Shown here: one piece after another, positions 2,667 through 26,874 of the stretch | Numbering within the stretch: the stretch's first letter is position 1 | Layout: every line of letters starts with the position of its first letter | From: a virus | Virus record (IMG/VR): IMGVR_UViG_3300035703_000279 | Span: 1-33,741 of that record | Direction: 5' to 3' (one strand) | Length of the DNA stretch: 33,741 nt | Notes under the pieces: model-generated | What the model was told of the DNA's origin: nothing | The model's input: the letters and a program-made list of their open reading frames with translations, nothing else | The model's database searches: none | Translations under genes and position numbers: made by a program

Positions 2667-3551
2667 TTATATCACCCAGTTAATGCGACGACTGGGGAAA
2701 CCTTTTACTGCGCTGAACGCCCATGAGTCGCCCTGCCTAAGCATCTTGTCGATGACAGTGCTCGATGCGTAGAACCCTTCAGAGCCCGGATCACCTGGGC
2801 CGACTGGTCCGGTGTGCGAGGATGGGCCCCACGAGTTGTCGATGCGGCCGTACACTGCACCGTTGATCGTGGCGTATCCGGCGAGGCACATGCAGTGCGC
2901 CCACGAACCGGATGGTTGGCAGATTCCGTTGGTGTCTCGAGCCATCGTGAAGCCCTGACTGCTGCTCACCGCAATGCCGTAGCCATTGGCCAGCATCCGC
3001 ATCGCTCCGCCCCACGAGGTGACCCGCGTCACTGACACAGGGTGCTTGCGAGCCAGTGGCTCGAGGTCATCAGGCACTCCAGCAGCGCCCCACTTCTTGC
3101 ACCTGTCGACCGAGTACTCCGAGAGGTCGTAGCTCCCGTGGATGCCGCGATCGATGAGGCCCCACTGAGACACCCACTTTGCGGCCCAGCTACCTGTGCT
3201 GCCGTCGCCCCGCAACCTACCTCCGCCCACTTCGACACGGCTGCCTCCATAGATAGCTTCTTGGCATAGGCTGCGGAACTCTTCAGGCTCACCGGCAGCG
3301 ATCTCGCAGCACATGCTATATTCAATCGCTCGGGCCGTTCCGAAGCTCACGCACGACCCAACCTGCCCCTGACTCCATGGCCGGAGCAGGCTGCCGGTGA
3401 CTTTGCGAGCCACATCCCACAGGTACACGTGATCGGGTGGATCTGCGATCTCCTCGCCCGCCTGCGTGACCCGCCAGTCAGGCTCCGGCAGCTCGGTCAG
3501 CAATTGAGCGACGGCATCGTCATCTCGCACCCAGCCCATCTCGTAATTCAT
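2667..3551 (-). CDS. Papain-family (C1) cysteine protease, candidate lysis enzyme
   Basis: A 294-residue protein with the full papain signature. Oxyanion Gln61 and catalytic Cys67 lie in QGQVGSCVSFG, catalytic His219 in GSWAHCMCLAGY and Asn239 in RIDNSWGP. No signal peptide is visible. The gene follows a holin-like gene and a lipoprotein-like gene and is coupled to the latter by an ATGA overlap. No lysozyme, amidase or transglycosylase is seen anywhere in the genome, so this enzyme is a candidate for degrading peptide cross-links or a proteinaceous envelope layer at lysis. A virion-associated or maturation protease is the alternative. Confidence 0.85.
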   Translation of the reverse strand: MNYEMGWVRDDDAVAQLLTELPEPDWRVTQAGEEIADPPDHVYLWDVARKVTGSLLRPWSQGQVGSCVSFGTARAIEYSMCCEIAAGEPEEFRSLCQEAIYGGSRVEVGGGRLRGDGSTGSWAAKWVSQWGLIDRGIHGSYDLSEYSVDRCKKWGAAGVPDDLEPLARKHPVSVTRVTSWGGAMRMLANGYGIAVSSSQGFTMARDTNGICQPSGSWAHCMCLAGYATINGAVYGRIDNSWGPSSHTGPVGPGDPGSEGFYASSTVIDKMLRQGDSWAFSAVKGFPSRRINWVI

Positions 3552-4461: not shown

Positions 4462-5328
4462 CTAATCGTGTGCTCGCACTCGACCTGCCGTGGATCGCTC
4501 AGGCGCCCAGATGTCCGGATGGAGCGCCAGTAGCTCGGCCTCGACTGCGGCCGACTGGTCGGTAGGTAGCTTGCGCCCGAAATACTGTCGCATCTGGCCG
4601 ACGTTCCAGCCCACCTCGTATGCTGCGATGCAGTAGTTGCGCAGCTTGTCGTTCAATGTGAGCGGATACGTGACAGGTCCGAAGCGCGGGAACCGATGCA
4701 CCCACTCGAGCCTCGGGTGGTACATGACCTTGCCACCATTGCGACGAACTCGGTCGTGTATGTAGATCTCTTCGCCAGCGAATCCCCTGAAGTCGTTGCT
4801 GAACCCCGGCCATTCGGCCCGCGCCATAAACGCATACGCCGATCCGTGAGCGTGCACCTCGTGTGGCTCATGCGGACCGACATGCCAGACGCCGAAGAAG
4901 TCGCCACGCAGTTCCGGCAAAAGCTCCGTGGCGACGAGGTGTCCGCCTTCGCTCCGCAGTGGTCCGACCCACATGTCGCGCCTCGATGCCTTGGCCTCGG
5001 CTGCCGACACCAGATAGTCCACAGATCCCGGCCCTAACAGAACGTGACAGTCGATCATCAGGACATGACTGCCACGTGCCTCTTCCCAGATGGAGTTCTT
5101 CGCATGCGCTGGCCCCTTCCCCTTCGGCTTGTGCACGTACCGCGTCTTGGTGTGTCCACAGACAGCCACCAGTTCCTTGGAGCTCACTGGCGCATCATCA
5201 ATGACCAGCAGTTCGACATCGTCCCGAGACAGCTCGACGTGGTAACTTCTGATGGCGCTCAGCGTCCACCACACACCCTGATCGTCGTTGAACGCAGCCA
5301 TGCCAATCGTCAGGACAGGGTCGGACAT
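4462..5328 (-). CDS. GT-A glycosyltransferase resembling polypeptide GalNAc-transferases
   Basis: A 288-residue cytosolic glycosyltransferase of the GT2/GT27 type. The N-terminal nucleotide-binding half begins LTIGMAAFND and includes ELLVIDDAP (about 40-47). The metal site is Asp93-Cys-His95 in MIDCHVLL, the DxH form of polypeptide GalNAc-transferases and not DxD. FAGEEIYIHDRVRRNGGKV (183-201) and LEWVHRF match the acceptor and catalytic GGE...GG...GHVFR region of that family. There is no signal or membrane segment. ATG 5328 has GGAGT upstream; the longer frame reads into antisense of the neighbour. It lies directly after mucin-like Thr/Ser tail genes, which are obvious candidate acceptors. 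Confidence 0.8.
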   Translation of the reverse strand: MSDPVLTIGMAAFNDDQGVWWTLSAIRSYHVELSRDDVELLVIDDAPVSSKELVAVCGHTKTRYVHKPKGKGPAHAKNSIWEEARGSHVLMIDCHVLLGPGSVDYLVSAAEAKASRRDMWVGPLRSEGGHLVATELLPELRGDFFGVWHVGPHEPHEVHAHGSAYAFMARAEWPGFSNDFRGFAGEEIYIHDRVRRNGGKVMYHPRLEWVHRFPRFGPVTYPLTLNDKLRNYCIAAYEVGWNVGQMRQYFGRKLPTDQSAAVEAELLALHPDIWAPERSTAGRVRAHD

Positions 5329-5365
5329 TAGCACTCCACGTCTAAGAAATTGGTAGTAGTTTTTC

Positions 5366-5743
5366 TTACAGAACCCGTGCCACATAACTGTCGCAGTCGA
5401 TGCAGTTCGGCAGCGCCTTGTCTCTCGAGGAGATCCGGCATTGACCATGAACAGAGCACGCATGCTTGATGGCGAGAGTACCGCCGCACCCGCACGATGG
5501 CTTAGCCTCGAGCGCTTCGCCCAGGTGCTGGCATGGCGCGGCCATGTGAAGCTTGATCTTGCGCAGCATCTCGAGCTGGTCGGGCGTCGGCCCTGTCGCT
5601 GGCGGCGTCGCACCAGTAGTCGTGACCGATGTCGCCACCGTTGCCGGATCTCCGCCCCAGAGCGAGCGATAGCGAGGGTCGTGGTCGTAGAGCCAGCAGA
5701 GTCGGCATCCGTCGCGTGGTGGTGTATGGTTGCAGGGTTTCAT
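5366..5743 (-). CDS. Cys-rich zinc-binding-type protein next to the glycosyltransferase
   Basis: A 125-residue protein with about eleven Cys in paired motifs: CRLC (13-16) near the N-terminus, then CGCGG, CSVHGQC and CIDCDSY near the C-terminus, separated by a Thr/Pro linker. The C-terminal Cys block with CxxHGxC resembles short zinc modules I associate with planctomycete glycosyltransferase neighbours. It overlaps the upstream tail gene by ATGA and precedes the glycosyltransferase. A scaffold or chaperone for glycosylation is possible; the function is unknown. Confidence 0.6.
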   Translation of the reverse strand: MKPCNHTPPRDGCRLCWLYDHDPRYRSLWGGDPATVATSVTTTGATPPATGPTPDQLEMLRKIKLHMAAPCQHLGEALEAKPSCGCGGTLAIKHACSVHGQCRISSRDKALPNCIDCDSYVARVL

Positions 5744-7224
5744 TCGGTCACCGTAGCAAATACAGTTTTAATTCCACTAGGTCCATATGTCAAAGTCCCG
5801 CCGACAAAATAGTTAGTTTCCATGCACCCAGAACTTGTTCCACTTCTAACTGCAATGCAATCGTTTGGTTCAACTTCAAATGGTGTATTTATTACAACAC
5901 ATGACATTGGTTGTAATGAATTACCGTATACCGATAAATTTCCTGCGTTTATAAATGTTGGGTCTGTATTATATTCAATACAACTAGATGGCGTGCAAGG
6001 CTCAGAGACACCTTGTCTAGTTCTGTAGCCAGTCGTTACGTTTAGATTTAATGACAATCTACATGCGCTTAATGATCCTGGCTCTAAATAAATATCTTTG
6101 TCCCATAGCTGAATTGTGCCTGAAATGTATACATTAGTGTTGCAATCATAGTATTTTGTTTCAGTTGTGCATGAGTTTCCAGAAACGTGATAAATATATG
6201 CTCCTGCATTATTACATAATAAATGCCGATTAAAATTACCACTTCCGTCATTATATCGAGAAAACCAATATACTCGATAAGGGTAAACAGCAGTAGTTGA
6301 TTTTTCGTAATGAAAAGGGATTGATACGCCATCAATGCATGGCCAAACACCATTTGGATCGCTAAATGTCAAATATAAAACCTTGGCTACACGCCTTGGA
6401 CCAGATAGGCAACATCTCAAATCTATTGGGCAACAATCATTAACTCCACAGCACTTCGTACACGTCAACCGCTTGCAGGCTGGCGTCGCATACTCCCCAT
6501 CTGTCGTTCCATTGCTGCTCGGATACGAGCACGAACACCCTGTCGAGCATGTGCCGTTACCACCAGAGACTTTGATCCATTTCTGTAATTCTGCGCGCCA
6601 TTGCCACGCGCATGAGCCGGTGCAGGGTTGCTCGGTTGTGGTTGTCGTCGTGGTCGATGATGTGCTGGTCGAGGTCGTAGTCGGTGCCGCAGTCGTGGTT
6701 GTGCTGGTCGTCGAGCTGGTTGTGCTGGTCGATGTGCTGGTTGTCGTGCTCGAGGTAGTCGATGAGGTGGTCGAGCTAGTAGTAGTCGTGGTCGATCCAA
6801 CGCAGTCTACGTACCATTCCTCATCTATTTCTGTGCCCGGCTCACTAGGAGCCGGACCGCATATGCACCCTTCGCCCTCGCATGAGTTGATGTAGACGGT
6901 CCAGATGTAGCCGTTCCATCGATAAACGCATAGACCGCCGCATGGTGATGGAGTGGATGTAGTGCTCGTCGTGCTGCTGGTTGTTGAGCTGGTCGTAGTC
7001 GATGACGAGCTGCTTGAGCTCGTTGTAGTCGATGAGCTTGACGAGCTCGTTGTTGTTGTTGAGCCCCCCTCATCTTGGCAAAATGTGTTACCAATTTGCC
7101 CTATTTCTGTCCCATTATATGCAGGTGGTCCAGAACATTCGCAGCCGACTCCGCACTCTTCTGAAATAAATACCCATGCAGAGCCATTCCATTGATATAT
7201 ACATGGCAGATCATTACACGCCAT
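5740..7224 (-). CDS. Mucin-like, Cys-rich distal tail protein (candidate receptor binder)
   Basis: A 494-residue protein. Three Cys/Trp modules (about 8-50, 95-142 and 201-250; pattern C-x-Y/W-x-W-x(2-6)-W ... GC-x-C) are separated by pure Thr/Ser linkers (56-92 and 145-197). A Cys-dense segment (250-273) and a C-terminal beta-rich domain (275-494) follow. The ATG at 7224 overlaps the previous stop as TGATG. The DNA of the C-terminal domain (5745-6460) is clearly more AT-rich than the genome, suggesting acquisition of a new tip domain. The long Thr/Ser stretches are candidate O-glycosylation sites for the nearby transferase. Surface localisation is inferred from composition and position. Confidence 0.65.
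   Translation of the reverse strand: MACNDLPCIYQWNGSAWVFISEECGVGCECSGPPAYNGTEIGQIGNTFCQDEGGSTTTTSSSSSSTTTSSSSSSSTTTSSTTSSTTSTTSTPSPCGGLCVYRWNGYIWTVYINSCEGEGCICGPAPSEPGTEIDEEWYVDCVGSTTTTTSSTTSSTTSSTTTSTSTSTTSSTTSTTTTAAPTTTSTSTSSTTTTTTTEQPCTGSCAWQWRAELQKWIKVSGGNGTCSTGCSCSYPSSNGTTDGEYATPACKRLTCTKCCGVNDCCPIDLRCCLSGPRRVAKVLYLTFSDPNGVWPCIDGVSIPFHYEKSTTAVYPYRVYWFSRYNDGSGNFNRHLLCNNAGAYIYHVSGNSCTTETKYYDCNTNVYISGTIQLWDKDIYLEPGSLSACRLSLNLNVTTGYRTRQGVSEPCTPSSCIEYNTDPTFINAGNLSVYGNSLQPMSCVVINTPFEVEPNDCIAVRSGTSSGCMETNYFVGGTLTYGPSGIKTVFATVTE
6640..7070. repeat. Low-complexity Thr/Ser-coding repeat tracts
   Basis: Two tracts (about 6640-6792 and 6955-7062) consist of imperfect GTCGTGGTCGATG-type short repeats that encode the Thr/Ser linkers on the minus strand. 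A third, similar tract at about 7436-7530 encodes the C-terminal linker of the next gene upstream. Such tracts can change length by slippage or recombination. Confidence 0.75.
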
Positions 7225-7421
7225 CACACACCCCCACGTATCGGTGGTGGCGTGCCATGCGACGTGTACACCACTTCACCGAACCACGTCCCGTCGTTGT
7301 GCGGCGGCCAGCACGGCGGACAGATAGGCTCATGTCCTTGCGGCACCCAGCGTATGCCGTCCCACATCCATGAGCAGTCGTTCTGTGGTGCCGTGGTCGT
7401 GTGGATAACGATATCGTCCAT
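7224..7421 (-). CDS. Single Cys/Trp-module protein
   Basis: A 65-residue protein comprising one copy of the module that is repeated in the following gene: CSWMWDGIRWVPQ, then ICPPCWPPHNDGTWFGE. It starts at an ATG overlapping the preceding stop (TGATG at 7421) and ends at another TGATG (7224). It therefore sits between a Thr-rich C-terminus and a module-starting N-terminus as if one long modular protein had been split into coupled cistrons. The role is presumably structural. Confidence 0.6.
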   Translation of the reverse strand: MDDIVIHTTTAPQNDCSWMWDGIRWVPQGHEPICPPCWPPHNDGTWFGEVVYTSHGTPPPIRGGV

Positions 7422-7984
7422 CACGGACCTCCTGTGCTCGTTGTCGTGGTGGTCGTACTCGACGTGCTGGATGTGCTCGATGTTGGTGCCGCCGTAGTCG
7501 TTGTCGTGGTGGTGGTTGTCGTGCAGTAATACGCACCGGGAACACATATGGTGGTGTAGACAGGAGTAATGGTGCCGTCGACGCAGGATATGCCTGATAC
7601 GTAATCGTAAGTTAGGACAGCGCCACCACCACCGCCACCAGCGATTGCCAGGTACACCACCTGATCAGAGTCATTCACCCCGGCATACCGAGCCAGATAT
7701 CGCTGAGTCGCAAGGGTGCCTGCGTTGAGCTCGCGTACCCGTACATCCACCCCGTCCGCATCATCCGTGGACCATGTGCCAGCGCTCTCGTCGTAGACAT
7801 CGATCACGGCAGGGTAGAGCCCCGACACGGCGGCGCCTGTCACGCGCACGACCGTCATGATCGGCATGCCGCCGGTGTTGTCGTCGCCCGGCTGCCGAGC
7901 ACCGAGCCGCCCGCCCTCGAATGCTCGGAGCAGTTTGGATATGCGACTCAGGTCGGCATCGCCTAACGTGTAACCGCTTGACAT
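7421..7984 (-). CDS. Tail protein with Thr-rich mucin-like C-terminus
   Basis: A 187-residue protein. The N-terminal part is beta-rich (VRVTGAAVSGLYPAVIDVYD, RELNAGTLATQRYLARYAG), followed by a Gly-rich stretch and a C-terminal Thr/Ser run (about 154-184). The sequence style resembles phage or prophage structural proteins of planctomycetes. It follows the previous gene after 7 nt, with the stop codon embedded in a GAGGT ribosome-binding site. It is probably part of the distal tail; the exact role is unknown. Confidence 0.6.
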   Translation of the reverse strand: MSSGYTLGDADLSRISKLLRAFEGGRLGARQPGDDNTGGMPIMTVVRVTGAAVSGLYPAVIDVYDESAGTWSTDDADGVDVRVRELNAGTLATQRYLARYAGVNDSDQVVYLAIAGGGGGGAVLTYDYVSGISCVDGTITPVYTTICVPGAYYCTTTTTTTTTTAAPTSSTSSTSSTTTTTTSTGGP

Positions 7985-8916: not shown

Positions 8917-11061
8917 TCATTTCTCCATTACGGCCTGCACGGGTTTCAATTTGTTCTGCTTAATCGCCTCGTCGACCAGCTTGCGCTGATAGTCGAGCTG
9001 CTGCTCGGACAGGTATGCCGCCCGCTCAGTGGCAATTCTGATTTTATCCTGAACGGACATGTTCTGCTCGCCATACTGCGCCCTGACTCGAGTCTCGACA
9101 TCAGCCGCACTGCCTCGGGTCGCTGCTGCGGAGAACATTGAGTCTCCGCCAATGTTCGCCCCGATCAGATCCTGAAGTTGCTTGCCCGCCTTGCGAGCCA
9201 TGGCCTCCTTGAACGCTGCGGTGTCCTTCTCGTTCAGCCCAGCTTGGCCCGCCTCGGCCATACGCTGGGATAGCGTCTTCATCTCGTGCTCGAACGCCTC
9301 ATACGGAGTCCGCATCTCTCGGATGGTGTTATTGGCAAAGTCTTTGCTGGCCCTGGCCATCGCCTCGATCTCGATCTTTGCCTTGTTGGCGGCTTCGGCG
9401 ACCTTGTCCAGAGCGTTACCATTTACACCTCCAGCGACGGCAGCAGGATCAAACATTGCTTTAGGTGCAGGCTTGGCAGCCTTAGCTTTCGCATCCATGT
9501 CGTTTCGTATTCTGTTAAAAAACTCTTCGACAGCTTGATCTGCTTGCAATCTGTTTTCCGCAGATTTATTGATTTTGGTGTCTCGCAGCCTGTCAACGCT
9601 GGCATTGTAATCGTCAGTGTTGTGTAGCGGATTCCTTAGCTGCATCAACACCTTGTCCACAGTCGCTTCGACATTGTAGTACATGGCCTCAAACGCTGCC
9701 TTCAGCGAATTGATCCCCTTGCTAAGGAACTCTACAGTGTCATAGGTCATCTTTCGCAGAGCGGCGAACGTGCCCTCGATACCGGCAGCCTTGTCCTTCG
9801 GATCCATCATGTCGCCAAACAATTTGGCTATCTCGACAACGATGTCCTTGACCCCAATAAAAACGCCACGTAACCCCGCCATCAGCGCCGGGATGTTGAT
9901 CGCGTCAAGCAATACTTTTGAAATCTCGCGGAACGTCTCGGTTGCAGTCTCGACTAGTCGCTTGAATTGACCCTCGAAGGATCCCCTGAACCGCTCGTTG
10001 GCTTCTTTCAGCGCATCACTAGCACCAGCCGCACTAATGGCCGCGATGCCCTTGGCGGCGCTGACGGTGCCGTCACGCACCGCAGCCATGGCGTCCTCGA
10101 CCGAGTGAGCCTTGCCTGTGGCCTTCGTCATGTTCTCGGCCAGAGCTTCCCACACCTTGAGGCCAGCGGCCTGCAGAGAATTGAACTCCGCCTCGCCAGC
10201 AACCCCTGCCCGCTGCATGCTGACGATGCTCGATGTCAGCATCCCCATGCCACCCTCACCGAGCAGTTCGGCGGCGTTCTGCAAAGACTTGACGGTGTCG
10301 GTCGATGCCTTAACCGAAAACCCAGCGGTGGCGAGAGCGTTCATTCCCTTGACGTTGTCAGCCAGGGCCACGCCTGACGCCATGGAGGCATCGCGCATCT
10401 CTTCGATTGCGGCCACGCCTGCCTTAAAGCTACCGGCCATATAGCTGGCTTTAATTTGAAGTGTTTCGAGTGCGCCGCCTAGCTTGGCGAAACTCAGCAC
10501 AGCGTTGCCTGCGCCGACAGCCATGCCTGCGAAACTTGCGATATCAGTAGCGCCAGCGGTCACAGATGCGGCCTTCTGAAATAGCGACTTCTGCGACCAT
10601 TCCTCCTGCGCCGCTTTGCGACTTGCCTTCTTCTTTTCCATTTCGATATCGGCTTGAATCTGCTTTGCGGTCATGCCCATCCGGCGCTGCCTGATACGCT
10701 CCTGCTGCATGTATTCTTGACGCTCTAGCGCATTCATGCCGGATAATTTTTTATCCATAGACTCTTTAGCGATATCTTTCTCGATGTCGCCTGCCGACAT
10801 GCCAGCCCGCCGCTGCTTAGTGGCTCGCTTGGCCTTGGCGTTCTCCTGCTCGAGTGCGTTCATCTTCTCCAGCGACTTGGCGAACCGCTCGTTTTCCTTG
10901 GCAGCTTCGCTAGCTGCCTTGGCAGCATCGCTCATGCCCTTGCCTAGCTCTGTGACTTTCTTGCCGCTGGCATCTACTGTGGTAGCCATCTTCTGCAGAC
11001 CGTTTTCGGCCGCCTTGCCGTCCCAGCCCATGGCGAGTGATGTGCGAATGATGCTAGCCAT
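8917..11061 (-). CDS. Tail tape measure protein
   Basis: A 714-residue protein that sets tail length and is ejected with the DNA. Residues 20-165 are highly helical and charged (coiled coil with repeated Ala/Lys/Glu). Residues about 190-350 match the tape-measure N-terminal domain (LQIKASYMAGSFKAG...MNALATAGF...LQAAGLKVWEAL...DAMAAVRDG), and the rest is helical. At about 0.15 nm per residue a tail near 100 nm is expected. It is preceded by the G/GT frameshift genes and overlaps the GT end by 8 nt, the classic order in long-tailed phages. Confidence 0.9.
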   Translation of the reverse strand: MASIIRTSLAMGWDGKAAENGLQKMATTVDASGKKVTELGKGMSDAAKAASEAAKENERFAKSLEKMNALEQENAKAKRATKQRRAGMSAGDIEKDIAKESMDKKLSGMNALERQEYMQQERIRQRRMGMTAKQIQADIEMEKKKASRKAAQEEWSQKSLFQKAASVTAGATDIASFAGMAVGAGNAVLSFAKLGGALETLQIKASYMAGSFKAGVAAIEEMRDASMASGVALADNVKGMNALATAGFSVKASTDTVKSLQNAAELLGEGGMGMLTSSIVSMQRAGVAGEAEFNSLQAAGLKVWEALAENMTKATGKAHSVEDAMAAVRDGTVSAAKGIAAISAAGASDALKEANERFRGSFEGQFKRLVETATETFREISKVLLDAINIPALMAGLRGVFIGVKDIVVEIAKLFGDMMDPKDKAAGIEGTFAALRKMTYDTVEFLSKGINSLKAAFEAMYYNVEATVDKVLMQLRNPLHNTDDYNASVDRLRDTKINKSAENRLQADQAVEEFFNRIRNDMDAKAKAAKPAPKAMFDPAAVAGGVNGNALDKVAEAANKAKIEIEAMARASKDFANNTIREMRTPYEAFEHEMKTLSQRMAEAGQAGLNEKDTAAFKEAMARKAGKQLQDLIGANIGGDSMFSAAATRGSAADVETRVRAQYGEQNMSVQDKIRIATERAAYLSEQQLDYQRKLVDEAIKQNKLKPVQAVMEK

Positions 11062-17944: not shown

Positions 17945-18385
17945 TTAGCGCCAGACAGCGATGCCCCACGACCGATAGGTGGCACCCATGCGATCGATGT
18001 CATGCCACGACCGTTTCCACGAAGGCTTCGGCTGGTCCATAGGACCCTCGGCGGGATCCTGATAGTGGATGCGATCGAACTCCACGCCAGCGACGACCAC
18101 ATAATGTCCGACACCCGATGCGCTCACGAGGCAGATCACCGGCCTGCCGATGGTGGTATGGTGGTGCAGATCCTGCAGGCTCATCTCCCCCGATATCACT
18201 CGGAGACCTACGCCACGCAGCATCGACTCGATGGCCCGAGGGTCGGTGCCGTTGATGACATTGCAGGACAACGGAGCCAGATCGCCCGGAGTGACACGCC
18301 TGCGCAGGTGCTTTAGGACAGTCAGGACTGCCGTATATCCGCAGTCGTGCTGTGCGTTCTGCCTGAGATCGGGGAGAGCGATCAT
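17945..18385 (-). CDS. Peptidase C39-like cysteine protease
   Basis: A 146-residue protein that is essentially one C39 domain: Gln9/Cys15 in RQNAQHDCGYTAVLTVLKHL, His94 in GVGHYVVVAGVEFDRIHYQDP, and Asp110. C39 enzymes usually cut at double-Gly leaders; here no transporter is present. It is coupled to terL by ATGA and precedes the portal gene, so a role in virion maturation or in processing an internal protein is likely. This position is not part of the standard HK97 module. Confidence 0.82.
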   Translation of the reverse strand: MIALPDLRQNAQHDCGYTAVLTVLKHLRRRVTPGDLAPLSCNVINGTDPRAIESMLRGVGLRVISGEMSLQDLHHHTTIGRPVICLVSASGVGHYVVVAGVEFDRIHYQDPAEGPMDQPKPSWKRSWHDIDRMGATYRSWGIAVWR

Positions 18386-21448: not shown

Positions 21449-22321
21449 CTACGTCGGTATTGCTCTGAATGAAACTTCAGAAGTTCTGCTATCATTTTTT
21501 CGCGTCGATTGAAATTCGAGCCACCATCCGCCGTGAGGTCTCGCGGCGCGCCCCTTCTCAGTGTGCCAGCCGTCGCCGCTTTCATCTTTCCACGCGCCGC
21601 ATCTTAAAAATAGCTGACGATTTTGCTCGACGTTGCCCCGAGATGTGAGCCGGATCATGATGTTCTCGTCCACATTGCGACGATGGATGTGGCCGCTAAC
21701 GTAGATGTCTGCCTCATATTGTCTCTGCGTCCTCGAGTGATCGATCATGCCACGTGTCACCTCGCCACCGCCGCCGTAGCCGTGGTGATACAGCAGTCGA
21801 GTGAGGGCCACATGCTTTGCGCTTTGTGGGAACAGATGGCGAGCCATCACGAACCCCCAGTACGGCGCACACACGACGCGGCTGCCATTACTGCGGAGCA
21901 GGCCGACCAGCCGTTGCAGCAAGTCAACCTCGTGCCGCTTCTTGACGCTGGTCTCATGATTGCCGTAGCTCATCAGAGCAATGCTGTCCGCATAGGGTGC
22001 GAACCACTCGGCAGCGGTGTCGACCAAACTGTCGAGGTAGTTGCCACATCGATGCTCAGGGCGCAGGGTGTCAGCCGAGGCGCGTGGATCCCACTTGCCC
22101 TGCATCGCGTCGAAGATGTCACCGAACATAAGGACGGGTGAGCCTGTCGCCTTAGCCTCGCCTAATGTGGCGGCCAGCTCATCACGCAGGCAGTGGGCGC
22201 TGTCCCAGTGGAGATCAGCCAGCAGCAGGACGCGGCGCACAGACCCGATGGCGCCGTGGTTAATGGTCAGCTTGTGGCAGTGTGTGTCCGAGCGCTCGAT
22301 GCTCCACCATGGATCTGTCAT
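21449..22321 (-). CDS. Calcineurin-like metallophosphoesterase
   Basis: A 290-residue protein with the complete two-metal motif set: Asp36/His38 (LLADLHWD), Asp68 (MFGDIFD), Asn121/His122 (YGNHE), His179/180 (YHHGYGG) and His211/213 (SGHIHRR). It resembles phage calcineurin-like phosphoesterases of unknown substrate; nuclease or nucleotidase activity is equally possible. It lies between the fibre block and the packaging genes. Confidence 0.85.
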   Translation of the reverse strand: MTDPWWSIERSDTHCHKLTINHGAIGSVRRVLLLADLHWDSAHCLRDELAATLGEAKATGSPVLMFGDIFDAMQGKWDPRASADTLRPEHRCGNYLDSLVDTAAEWFAPYADSIALMSYGNHETSVKKRHEVDLLQRLVGLLRSNGSRVVCAPYWGFVMARHLFPQSAKHVALTRLLYHHGYGGGGEVTRGMIDHSRTQRQYEADIYVSGHIHRRNVDENIMIRLTSRGNVEQNRQLFLRCGAWKDESGDGWHTEKGRAARPHGGWWLEFQSTRKNDSRTSEVSFRAIPT

Positions 22322-25214: not shown

Positions 25215-25581
25215 TCAGCACCTCGTATGTCACGACCACCTGAGCAGGCCCGCCGTTGCCGGCGACCATCCGCACGCACACACTTGGTACATGCTCCCAG
25301 TCGTCATCGATCAGCAGTCCAGACCTCACCGACCAGTCGAGGATCGGCTTGGCCACGTTGTCGAGGTCCCTGCCCTTTCTCCATCCCTTGCCAGGCATGA
25401 CGGAGATCACGATATTAACTCGATCACCGATAAGAGCGGACCGAACACCAGCGACTCGTGCCGTCATATCCGCCAGTGTGATCCATCGCGTGTAAGTTGC
25501 CGACTTATGCACTCGCCCACGGTTGCTGCGCCAGATGCCGTTCACGCTTGGCGGTATCGGCAGGATGATCGTTAGCCCAAT
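25204..25581 (-). CDS. rusA: RusA-like Holliday junction resolvase
   Basis: About 125 residues. LTIILPIPPSVNGIWR opens the fold, and the acidic catalytic cluster is in GRDLDNVAKPILDWSVRSGLLIDDDWEHV, the hallmark of RusA. It resolves recombination intermediates for packaging. No ATG, GTG or TTG sits at the natural start: ATT 25579-25581 is the only near-start codon, and the open frame reads 170 nt further into the clamp gene. The start is thus unsure and could be ATT, an upstream in-frame start, or frameshifting from the clamp. Confidence 0.85.
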   Translation of the reverse strand: MGLTIILPIPPSVNGIWRSNRGRVHKSATYTRWITLADMTARVAGVRSALIGDRVNIVISVMPGKGWRKGRDLDNVAKPILDWSVRSGLLIDDDWEHVPSVCVRMVAGNGGPAQVVVTYEVLNGG

Positions 25582-26693
25582 GGCATCAGGAGCTGCGTCA
25601 GGTTGTCCGACTTCAGGATCATCTGGCCGCTCTCGGTCAGGAACGCCGTGACCTCCTGTGTCTTGATCGCCTTCAGCGCGTCCAGCAGGTACTTCGGGTT
25701 GAAGTTGCTCTTGGACTCGACGGACACGTCGCATGGGATCACCACCTGACATTTACCGCTCTGAGATTGCGCCGATAGGTGCAGCCCCGTCTGTCGGTAA
25801 TCCACGGTCATCCGACTCGTCTCGTGATCCACCATGAACTCCACCTGCCGGATGGCATGGGAGAGAGCCGACAGATCATGCACGTATGGTGCTCCGATTT
25901 TGGATTCCTTCGGCATGACGGCGTGGTAGTCGGGGAACTTGCCATTGAGCTGGACGAAGACCAGCTCGGCCATGCTCTGTCCATCGATGCTCCAATACGC
26001 CACGACTTCGTTGGCGCGCACATAAAGCGCTAGCTGGGCACCCTCGAATCGCGGATGCAGGAACGGCAAAACATTCCGAGGGATCAGCGCTGATCGGACC
26101 TTGGCAGTACCGGATGCCTCACATGTGCCAACGGCGAGCCTGCGCCCATCGGTGCTAGCAGCGACTGCCTGCTTCTTGGTGTAGGAGACCTCAATGCCAC
26201 ACAGAGCGATCCGTGCCGACTCCACGCAGACTGCATGCTCGACGCTGCCGAGAAGCGCCTCAAAGTCCATCGAGTCGGCGAACACTATGTGATCCAGCGA
26301 GGTAGGCTCCAAGCCCTGCAGGATCGGGATCACAGCATCATCACGCTTTGATAGCTGCCACTCGCTGCCACCGGCCAAGACATCGATCTGCTCGGGATAA
26401 TCGATGTCGATATCAAGGTAGTCCTGCTGAACAAGTCCGACGATCTGGTCAAGCTTGCCCAGGTGAACATCGGCTGTGGTGCATTCTTGGTTTCCGGACT
26501 TTGACGCTCTAATGTAGACCGTCATGGATATCGAAGATGTCGGGTCGGTAACGGTCAGGCTAATCCGTTGGCCGAGGCTTGCGTCTGCCTGGATGCGGAC
26601 GCTTACGGGTTCGCCCTTGGCTGTCTTTTGACCTATCGGCTTTAGGCGCTTCAGGCCTTGGCGTAGTTCTCGGGTTAACAGTGTCAGGATCAT
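25572..26693 (-). CDS. dnaN: DNA polymerase III beta sliding clamp homologue
   Basis: A 373-residue protein with three-domain clamp features: MILTLLTRELRQGLKRL at the start, VSYTKKQAVAASTDGRRLAVG in the middle domain, NGKFPDYHAVMPKES, and the end NPKYLLDALKAIKTQEV...LKSDNLTQLLMPLG, the counterpart of DnaN's ...YLVMPMR. TTGGAG precedes the ATG. No phage polymerase is present, so it probably docks host Pol III, resolvase or other clamp-binding partners onto phage DNA. The preceding ORF overlaps its first 134 nt. Confidence 0.85.
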   Translation of the reverse strand: MILTLLTRELRQGLKRLKPIGQKTAKGEPVSVRIQADASLGQRISLTVTDPTSSISMTVYIRASKSGNQECTTADVHLGKLDQIVGLVQQDYLDIDIDYPEQIDVLAGGSEWQLSKRDDAVIPILQGLEPTSLDHIVFADSMDFEALLGSVEHAVCVESARIALCGIEVSYTKKQAVAASTDGRRLAVGTCEASGTAKVRSALIPRNVLPFLHPRFEGAQLALYVRANEVVAYWSIDGQSMAELVFVQLNGKFPDYHAVMPKESKIGAPYVHDLSALSHAIRQVEFMVDHETSRMTVDYRQTGLHLSAQSQSGKCQVVIPCDVSVESKSNFNPKYLLDALKAIKTQEVTAFLTESGQMILKSDNLTQLLMPLG

Positions 26694-26874
26694 CCGATAC
26701 TCCAAGTAACCAGCAGTCTCGGAGCTTGTCTCTCAGCTCATCGATGTACTGCATCAGAACCCCGACCGCGCACCCCGCGTGATCGAGCTCGCATCCATCC
26801 CAGTGAGTCGACTGCAGGCCTTTGTGCAGATGCGCGGCCTCAATCGCATTAAGTCGCTCATTGGAGATGGTCAT
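26560..26874 (-). CDS. Hypothetical protein overlapping the clamp gene
   Basis: The ORF has 104 residues from ATG 26874 (ATGA overlap). The first 60 residues are plausible (MTISNERLNAIEAAHLHKGL..., CAVGVLMQYIDELRDKLRDCW). After the clamp start it becomes a Pro/Arg/Lys-rich tail that may be unstructured. It shares 134 nt with the clamp in another frame. A coiled helix pair is likely; function is unknown. Confidence 0.5.
   Translation of the reverse strand: MTISNERLNAIEAAHLHKGLQSTHWDGCELDHAGCAVGVLMQYIDELRDKLRDCWLLGVSDDPDTVNPRTTPRPEAPKADRSKDSQGRTRKRPHPGRRKPRPTD

Follow-up and report, generated by a model that had tools for sequence, protein, structure and literature searches.

Mucin-type O-glycosylation is regarded as a Golgi process of animals and protists, and the glucosylation of O-antigens by prophages is well known. 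The metal site of the wall teichoic acid GlcNAc-transferases TarP and TarS, of TarF and of the K4 chondroitin polymerase is of the DxD type, and not of the DxH type. The polypeptide GalNAc-transferases of family GT27, among them the human enzymes that attach the first sugar of mucins, transfer GalNAc from UDP-GalNAc to Ser/Thr with retention. In GalNAc-T2, a member of this family, the Mn2+ ligands are Asp224, His226 and His359 (PMC4432651), and a ricin-type lectin domain belongs to the definition of this family (PMC4202792). Mycobacteriophages are described as glycosylating their capsids and tail tubes with their own glycosyltransferases (Freeman et al. 2023, in PMC12363180 and PMC12619734), Che8 gp110 and Corndog gp38 being cases in point (PMC12363180, PMC12619734). 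Phage glycosyltransferases that hypermodify DNA are known as well (cited in PMC12619734).

The window, i.e. the whole stretch of DNA analysed here, comes from a virus record in IMG/VR and is 33,741 bases long. Scanning it revealed the gene set of a tailed phage, in which the terminase (TerL), portal, head protease, major head protein, head-tail adaptors and tail chaperone were recognised. The phage is temperate, with an integrase encoded on the opposite strand. At the end of the tail operon, the minus strand carries the genes for a 714-aa protein, a 307-aa tail protein, a first Thr/Ser linker protein, a 65-aa protein, a second Thr/Ser linker protein, a Cys-rich protein and a glycosyltransferase, in this order (Table 1). 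These genes are near-contiguous or overlapping, and the ATG start codon of the 65-aa gene overlaps the stop codon of the 187-aa gene. The glycosyltransferase gene is located beside structural genes inside the late tail operon, and the gene order is conserved in relatives. An initial annotation, made from the letters alone, had described the Thr/Ser genes, the Cys-rich gene and the transferase gene in this order in one transcript. Both the arrangement and the coordinates and motifs given for these genes proved correct upon re-examination; the 65-aa protein was absent from that description. Linker protein 2, encoded downstream of the tape-measure position, is a putative tail tip or fibre protein. 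However, it should be noted that the virion location of the Thr/Ser proteins was inferred from gene order only. For the 307-aa tail protein, AF2 gave a model (pLDDT 64) that was too poor for a structure search.

Table 1. Features of the tail-operon end, with positions in the window.
Feature	Position	Strand	Remarks
Large 714-aa protein at the tape-measure position	8917-11061	minus	placed by operon position
Neighbouring tail protein, 307 aa	7992..8915	minus	anchor of the linker-enzyme comparison
Linker protein 1, 187 aa	7421..7984	minus	head domain of ~130 aa and C-terminal T/S tail
Poly-Thr run, 10 residues	7493..7522	minus	in linker protein 1
T/S run, 17 residues	7433..7483	minus	in linker protein 1
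Small 65-aa protein	about 7224..7421	minus	one Cys/Trp domain; frame within ORF 7224-7547
Linker protein 2, 494 aa	5740..7224	minus	three Cys/Trp domains, T/S linkers, C-terminal domain
T/S linker, 37 residues	6952..7062	minus	in linker protein 2
T/S linker, 35 residues	6691..6795	minus	in linker protein 2
T/S linker, 16 residues	6634..6681	minus	in linker protein 2
Cys-rich protein, 125 aa	5366..5743	minus	MKPCNHTPPRDGCRLCWLY...; between linker genes and glycosyltransferase
GT27-like glycosyltransferase, 288 aa	4462..5328	minus	ATG start
Metal-site residue D93	5050-5052	minus	in the glycosyltransferase
Metal-site residue H95	5044-5046	minus	in the glycosyltransferase
Metal-site residue H211	4696-4698	minus	in the glycosyltransferase

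Several other genes of the window deserve mention. A papain-like cysteine protease (2667-3551; PF00112, 23 bits) is kept downstream of the glycosyltransferase in many relatives. Near the head genes, a calcineurin-like metallophosphoesterase is encoded at 21449-22321, and the start of a stretch in the tail region of another contig (L010, 2023-2904) looks similar to it. Between terminase and portal lies the gene for a 146-aa protein (17945-18385) that begins MIALPDLRQNAQHDCGYTAVLTVLK; by eye, this start resembles that of a C39-like cysteine peptidase. Lastly, this 34-kb phage record encodes a homologue of the DNA polymerase III beta subunit, the sliding clamp (25572-26705).

The initial annotation had likened the transferase to polypeptide GalNAc-transferases on account of its motifs, which are D93-C94-H95, G185-E-E, G-G and W209-V-H211-R-F. 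Across an alignment of 16 phage relatives, which reaches down to about 30% identity, residues D93, H95, E186 and H211 do not vary. DxH is present in every relative among those listed at 33-39% identity, and all remote relatives listed have D-C-H or D-S-H. As judged from the sequences, these motifs are far beyond chance. In Pfam, the enzyme matches only the general GT2 profile PF00535 (34.4 bits against a cut-off of 23.3), but the DxD metal motif of GT2 is not met, DxH being found in all aligned complete relatives. AF2, supplied with 12 phage relatives, produced a model with a pLDDT of 86 and a pTM of 0.87. When this model was submitted to Foldseek, the 38 best PDB chains were polypeptide GalNAc-transferases, and after VIA realignment GT27 catalytic domains occupied the first 28 PDB entries without exception (242-264 residues aligned, Z 18.7-21.9), the first other structure being the K4 chondroitin polymerase (Z 18.2). 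A better fit to a GT2 cell-wall enzyme would have refuted the earlier proposal, but the GalNAc-transferases came out ahead of every such enzyme.

A profile of eight diverse phage enzymes (A6) matched GalNAc-T4 (E 2.6e-4) and T12 (7e-4); weaker matches were PGANT9 and T10. The alignments span both halves of the catalytic domain. A profile of the C-terminal half alone gave no GalNAc-transferase match, whereas the longer profile did. In the alignment with GalNAc-T4, the phage D-C-H falls on D-C-H, F-(A/G)-G-E on W-G-G-E, and the His of W-x-H-R-F on that of G-H-V-F, the third ligand. The proposed DxH site is thereby supported at the level of alignment, since DxH and the third His align with the Mn ligands of the GalNAc-transferases. 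The resemblance is nevertheless incomplete. It holds for the fold, DxH, the third His and the G-E motif, but not for two other hallmarks of GT27: the WGGE motif with the catalytic Trp331 is replaced by F183-A/G-G185-E186, in which the Glu is kept and the Trp is an invariant Phe, and no C-terminal ricin-type lectin domain was detected by Pfam, the 288 residues stopping at the end of the catalytic domain. Sequence identity to the GalNAc-transferases is about 14%. According to the model, the enzyme is built like a GT27 catalytic domain. Because it lacks the lectin domain and the Trp of WGGE and is a GT2 enzyme by Pfam, we refer to it as GT27-like and refrain from assigning it to GT27.

Since the sequence-profile matches include the teichoic-acid enzymes TarP, TarS and TarF, and since the phage is temperate, the enzyme could alternatively modify the host surface (O-antigen, teichoic acid or capsule) and block superinfection like prophage GtrABS, the Thr/Ser stretches then being mere flexible linkers. 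We regard this as unlikely. The matches to teichoic-acid and other GT2 enzymes are confined to the first ~100 residues, the nucleotide-binding half, and it is GT27 that fits the fold and the DxH/His site. Moreover, the gene lies within the late tail operon, linker chemistry is tracked by the presence of the enzyme (see below), and the enzyme is found in contigs of 150-190 kb as well. As DNA-hypermodifying phage glycosyltransferases exist, modified DNA bases could also be the acceptor; this we judge highly improbable, because no base-hypermodification gene was recognised among the scanned window proteins, the gene is part of the tail operon, and the nearest fold class, GT27, acts on proteins.

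The long pure Thr/Ser stretches that the initial annotation had pointed out in two tail proteins are indeed exceptional: whereas the five runs listed in Table 1 comprise 10 to 37 residues, the longest run in the 22 other proteins of the window has 5, and the chance expectation for a run of at least 10 is about 1e-5. These runs are encoded by 7-8 different Thr/Ser codons and are therefore not an artefact of a DNA microsatellite. In the 494-aa protein, the linkers separate three Cys/Trp domains of the ‘W.WNG..W’ type, of which the 65-aa protein contains a further copy.

For the Cys-rich protein (5366-5743), no Pfam or PHROG family was matched. Together with relatives such as L133:10865-11287, it forms a family of small Cys/His-rich proteins with the pattern CxHLG...CGCG...C..HG.C...C..C, which are possibly metal-binding. 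The view that this protein is tied to Thr/Ser chemistry had to be rejected. Its relatives occur in phages with Thr/Ser linkers, with Ser-Gly linkers and with no linkers, and it therefore does not track the enzyme.

How specific is the association of Thr/Ser runs with the enzyme? Among 381 ORFs on three long phage contigs (about 397 kb), only four have a run of at least 7, and all four are located immediately upstream of a GT27-like gene, one with a Cys-rich gene between. For 32 of the non-redundant GT27-like enzymes, the upstream sequence was long enough to be inspected as well. A mucin-like stretch was present within 6 kb upstream of 22 of these, as compared to none of 340 background ORFs. 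The number rises to 23 of 32 if L017 is included, which scored 0 through an ORF-boundary artefact and has 131 T/S-run residues. It should be noted that the thresholds for ‘mucin-like’ were set after seeing the data. Next to remote relatives, other proteins are encoded, but their chemistry is the same; they have (PT)n and (SP)n stretches of more than 100 residues, PTPTPT, SPSPTP, TTTTTTASP and TTTTTTTLAP repeats, and repeats of TTTTTTTTTPAP (L013) and EEPTSSTTSSTT (L049). About nine of the 32 relatives (~30%) have no mucin-like neighbour (the D-S-H clade of L178, L181 and L199, plus L183, L188, L190, L196, L167 and L011), and the transferase family may therefore have other jobs or also act elsewhere. 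Very mucin-like stretches of (PT)n, (SP)n or TTTTTTASP, up to 100 residues or more, were seen in L168:2527-4917, L171:492-4214 and L184:1306-4914, three to four genes upstream of the GT27-like enzyme.

Relatives of the transferase were found in 52 viral contigs, and a broader profile recovered 232 stretches, of which the best 80 were used. Close relatives keep the order tail protein, T/S protein 1, T/S protein 2, Cys-rich protein and transferase; in L040-L044 the T/S genes, the Cys-rich gene and the transferase gene are retained, but the upstream protein is different. Neither the transferase profile nor the tail-protein profile found a relative in the contigs of 84,980 species genomes. When 50,697 named phages were searched by tblastn, the window enzyme gave two weak fragments only and three remote relatives gave nothing. 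Judged by these sequence searches, named phages have almost no members of this family. A second GT2 gene is located near the transferase gene in 32 of the 51 transferase-bearing loci examined, and 17 of the 51 have a nearby protein of a family that Pfam matched to Methyltransf_24 (weakly CmcI) in L003. The sequence signatures used revealed neither of the two in the window. In some relatives (L049:5731-7767, L053:6001-8043 and L166-L176), the GT27-like enzyme carries an additional fused domain of about 300-350 aa, which in L053 shows a weak match to the Methyltransf_24/CmcI type.

A further comparison started from the 307-aa tail protein and took in all viral contigs that encode a relative of it and continue for 3 kb or more downstream. 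The GT27-like enzyme was present in all 23 phages with poly-Thr/Ser linkers. In all seven phages in which the homologous linker protein carries Ser-Gly repeats (SGSGSESGSVSGS), its place is taken by a fusion of 511-522 aa that Pfam recognises as a Mnn1-like transferase (PF11051, Mannosyl_trans3) joined to a methyltransferase; two of these seven loci were reassigned by eye from ‘none’, where an over-strict pattern had put them. Neither enzyme was found in any of the eight remote tail-protein relatives without a repeat linker. Fisher's test for Thr/Ser linkers against the transferase gave 6e-11, although the phages are related. Accordingly, the idea that tail relatives without Thr/Ser linkers simply lack a glycosyltransferase was rejected, as Ser-Gly linkers and a different glycosyltransferase were found there. 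L101:5217-8684, L107:8431-11491 and L115:8434-11360 are examples of this Ser-Gly set, which may represent a second phage protein-glycosylation cassette in sister phages.

In the tail-protein tree, the Ser-Gly class appears in two places inside the Thr/Ser class, which forces at least two changes, whereas the shorter tree of the linker head domain does not exclude a single split. Because the two trees differ, we can only infer from them that linker and enzyme changed together at least once, perhaps twice. As the head-domain tree needs one switch only, the cassette may have been transferred as a whole. This leaves room for an explanation in which transferase and Thr/Ser proteins form a transferable tail-fibre module and the enzyme acts on another virion site, such as the Cys-rich protein or the C-terminal domain, or on something other than protein. 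Neighbouring genes do travel together, and mucin-like neighbours are missing in some remote relatives. Yet the neighbours that remote relatives do have, such as Cys-rich T/S proteins, PT/SP repeats and TTTTTTTTTPAP, are Thr/Ser-rich despite their diversity, and the Cys-rich protein, being present in all classes, is untied to the enzyme. We thus find this explanation quite doubtful. Overall, that the enzyme follows the chemistry of the linkers and that its gene belongs to the tail operon makes action on the host surface, inert linkage and action on DNA all less likely.

The initial annotation had inferred an enzyme-substrate relation between the transferase and the Thr/Ser proteins. The synteny of transferase and T/S-rich genes in dozens of phages, with the enzyme changing along with linker chemistry, fits this inference, which is supported by comparative evidence at the sequence level. 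We therefore consider it probable that the phage encodes, in this cassette, a dedicated module for the O-glycosylation of protein linkers in its virion, with catalysis, acceptor and virion presence being inferred. During late expression, the GT27-like enzyme would hold Mn2+ via D93, H95 and H211. Its donor would be a nucleotide sugar, probably UDP-HexNAc, and its acceptors the many Thr/Ser hydroxyls in the linkers of those tail-tip proteins whose genes lie directly upstream; the transfer would take place before tail assembly or in the course of it. A dense coat of sugars would stiffen and extend the stretches between the Cys/Trp domains and make them resist proteases; it could also mask the tail. 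Many relatives encode a second GT2 enzyme and a CmcI-like O-methyltransferase downstream, which would extend or cap the glycan; their presence suggests glycan extension and O-methylation in the respective phages. The genes, motifs, fold match, conservation, co-occurrence with T/S linkers and matched enzyme switch in Ser-Gly phages are observations; catalysis, donor, acceptor, timing, virion presence and benefit are inferred, without biochemical data. That these phages sugar-coat their own tails is thus strongly suggested, but not proven. With only a slight leaning in its favour, we further propose that a family of GT27-like protein O-glycosyltransferases of uncultured phages builds mucin-like tails, and that linker-enzyme pairs are exchanged together by a pairing rule in which Thr/Ser and Pro-Thr/Ser-Pro linkers go with GT27-like enzymes and Ser-Gly linkers with the Mnn1-like transferase-methyltransferase.

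If true, this would define a prokaryotic-virus branch of mucin-type O-glycosylation and account for the linkers rich in T/S or SG that these environmental phages possess. Being compact and free of a lectin domain, a GT27-like enzyme with its own acceptor would give a simple model of peptide recognition, and the pair could serve as a tool for producing mucin-like glycoproteins in bacteria. Phage GT27-like enzymes would also provide clues to the origin of GT27, and the linker-enzyme switch leads to a direct, testable prediction of acceptor specificity. The literature searched, with partial journal coverage, does not describe phages with GT27-like enzymes or mucin-like acceptors, which is weak evidence. 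The initial annotation had called a dedicated cassette of this type unusual. That assessment stands in so far as no phage GT27 or mucin precedent was found in that literature, but not for phage virion glycosylation as such, which is already known from mycobacteriophages; the new part is the combination of a GT27-like enzyme and mucin-like acceptors, which has strong comparative support and no biochemistry.

Compared with known systems, the enzyme shares with GT27 polypeptide GalNAc-transferases such as human GalNAc-T2 and T4 the GT-A fold across the whole catalytic domain, the DxH (a D-C-H identical to that of GalNAc-T4), the third His, the peptide-side G-E motif and the Thr/Ser-rich partner proteins. 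It differs from them in the features noted above, i.e. the low identity, the missing lectin domain and the Phe in place of the WGGE Trp, and in being viral and without a secretory pathway. With TarP/TarS, TarF and the K4 chondroitin polymerase it shares the nucleotide-binding half and the PF00535 profile, but the similarity in profile searches does not extend beyond that half. The PF11051-methyltransferase fusion (L089, L099, L101, L107 and L115) occupies the same operon position beside homologous linker proteins, but is an unrelated type of enzyme that is partnered with Ser-Gly instead of Thr/Ser linkers. The mycobacteriophages likewise use a phage-encoded glycosyltransferase to modify structural proteins, and there the C-terminal parts of virion proteins are modified, one of the T/S runs described here also being C-terminal. 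The hosts are different, however, and in the present case the presumed acceptors are long mucin-like tail-tip linkers and the enzyme is GT27-like.
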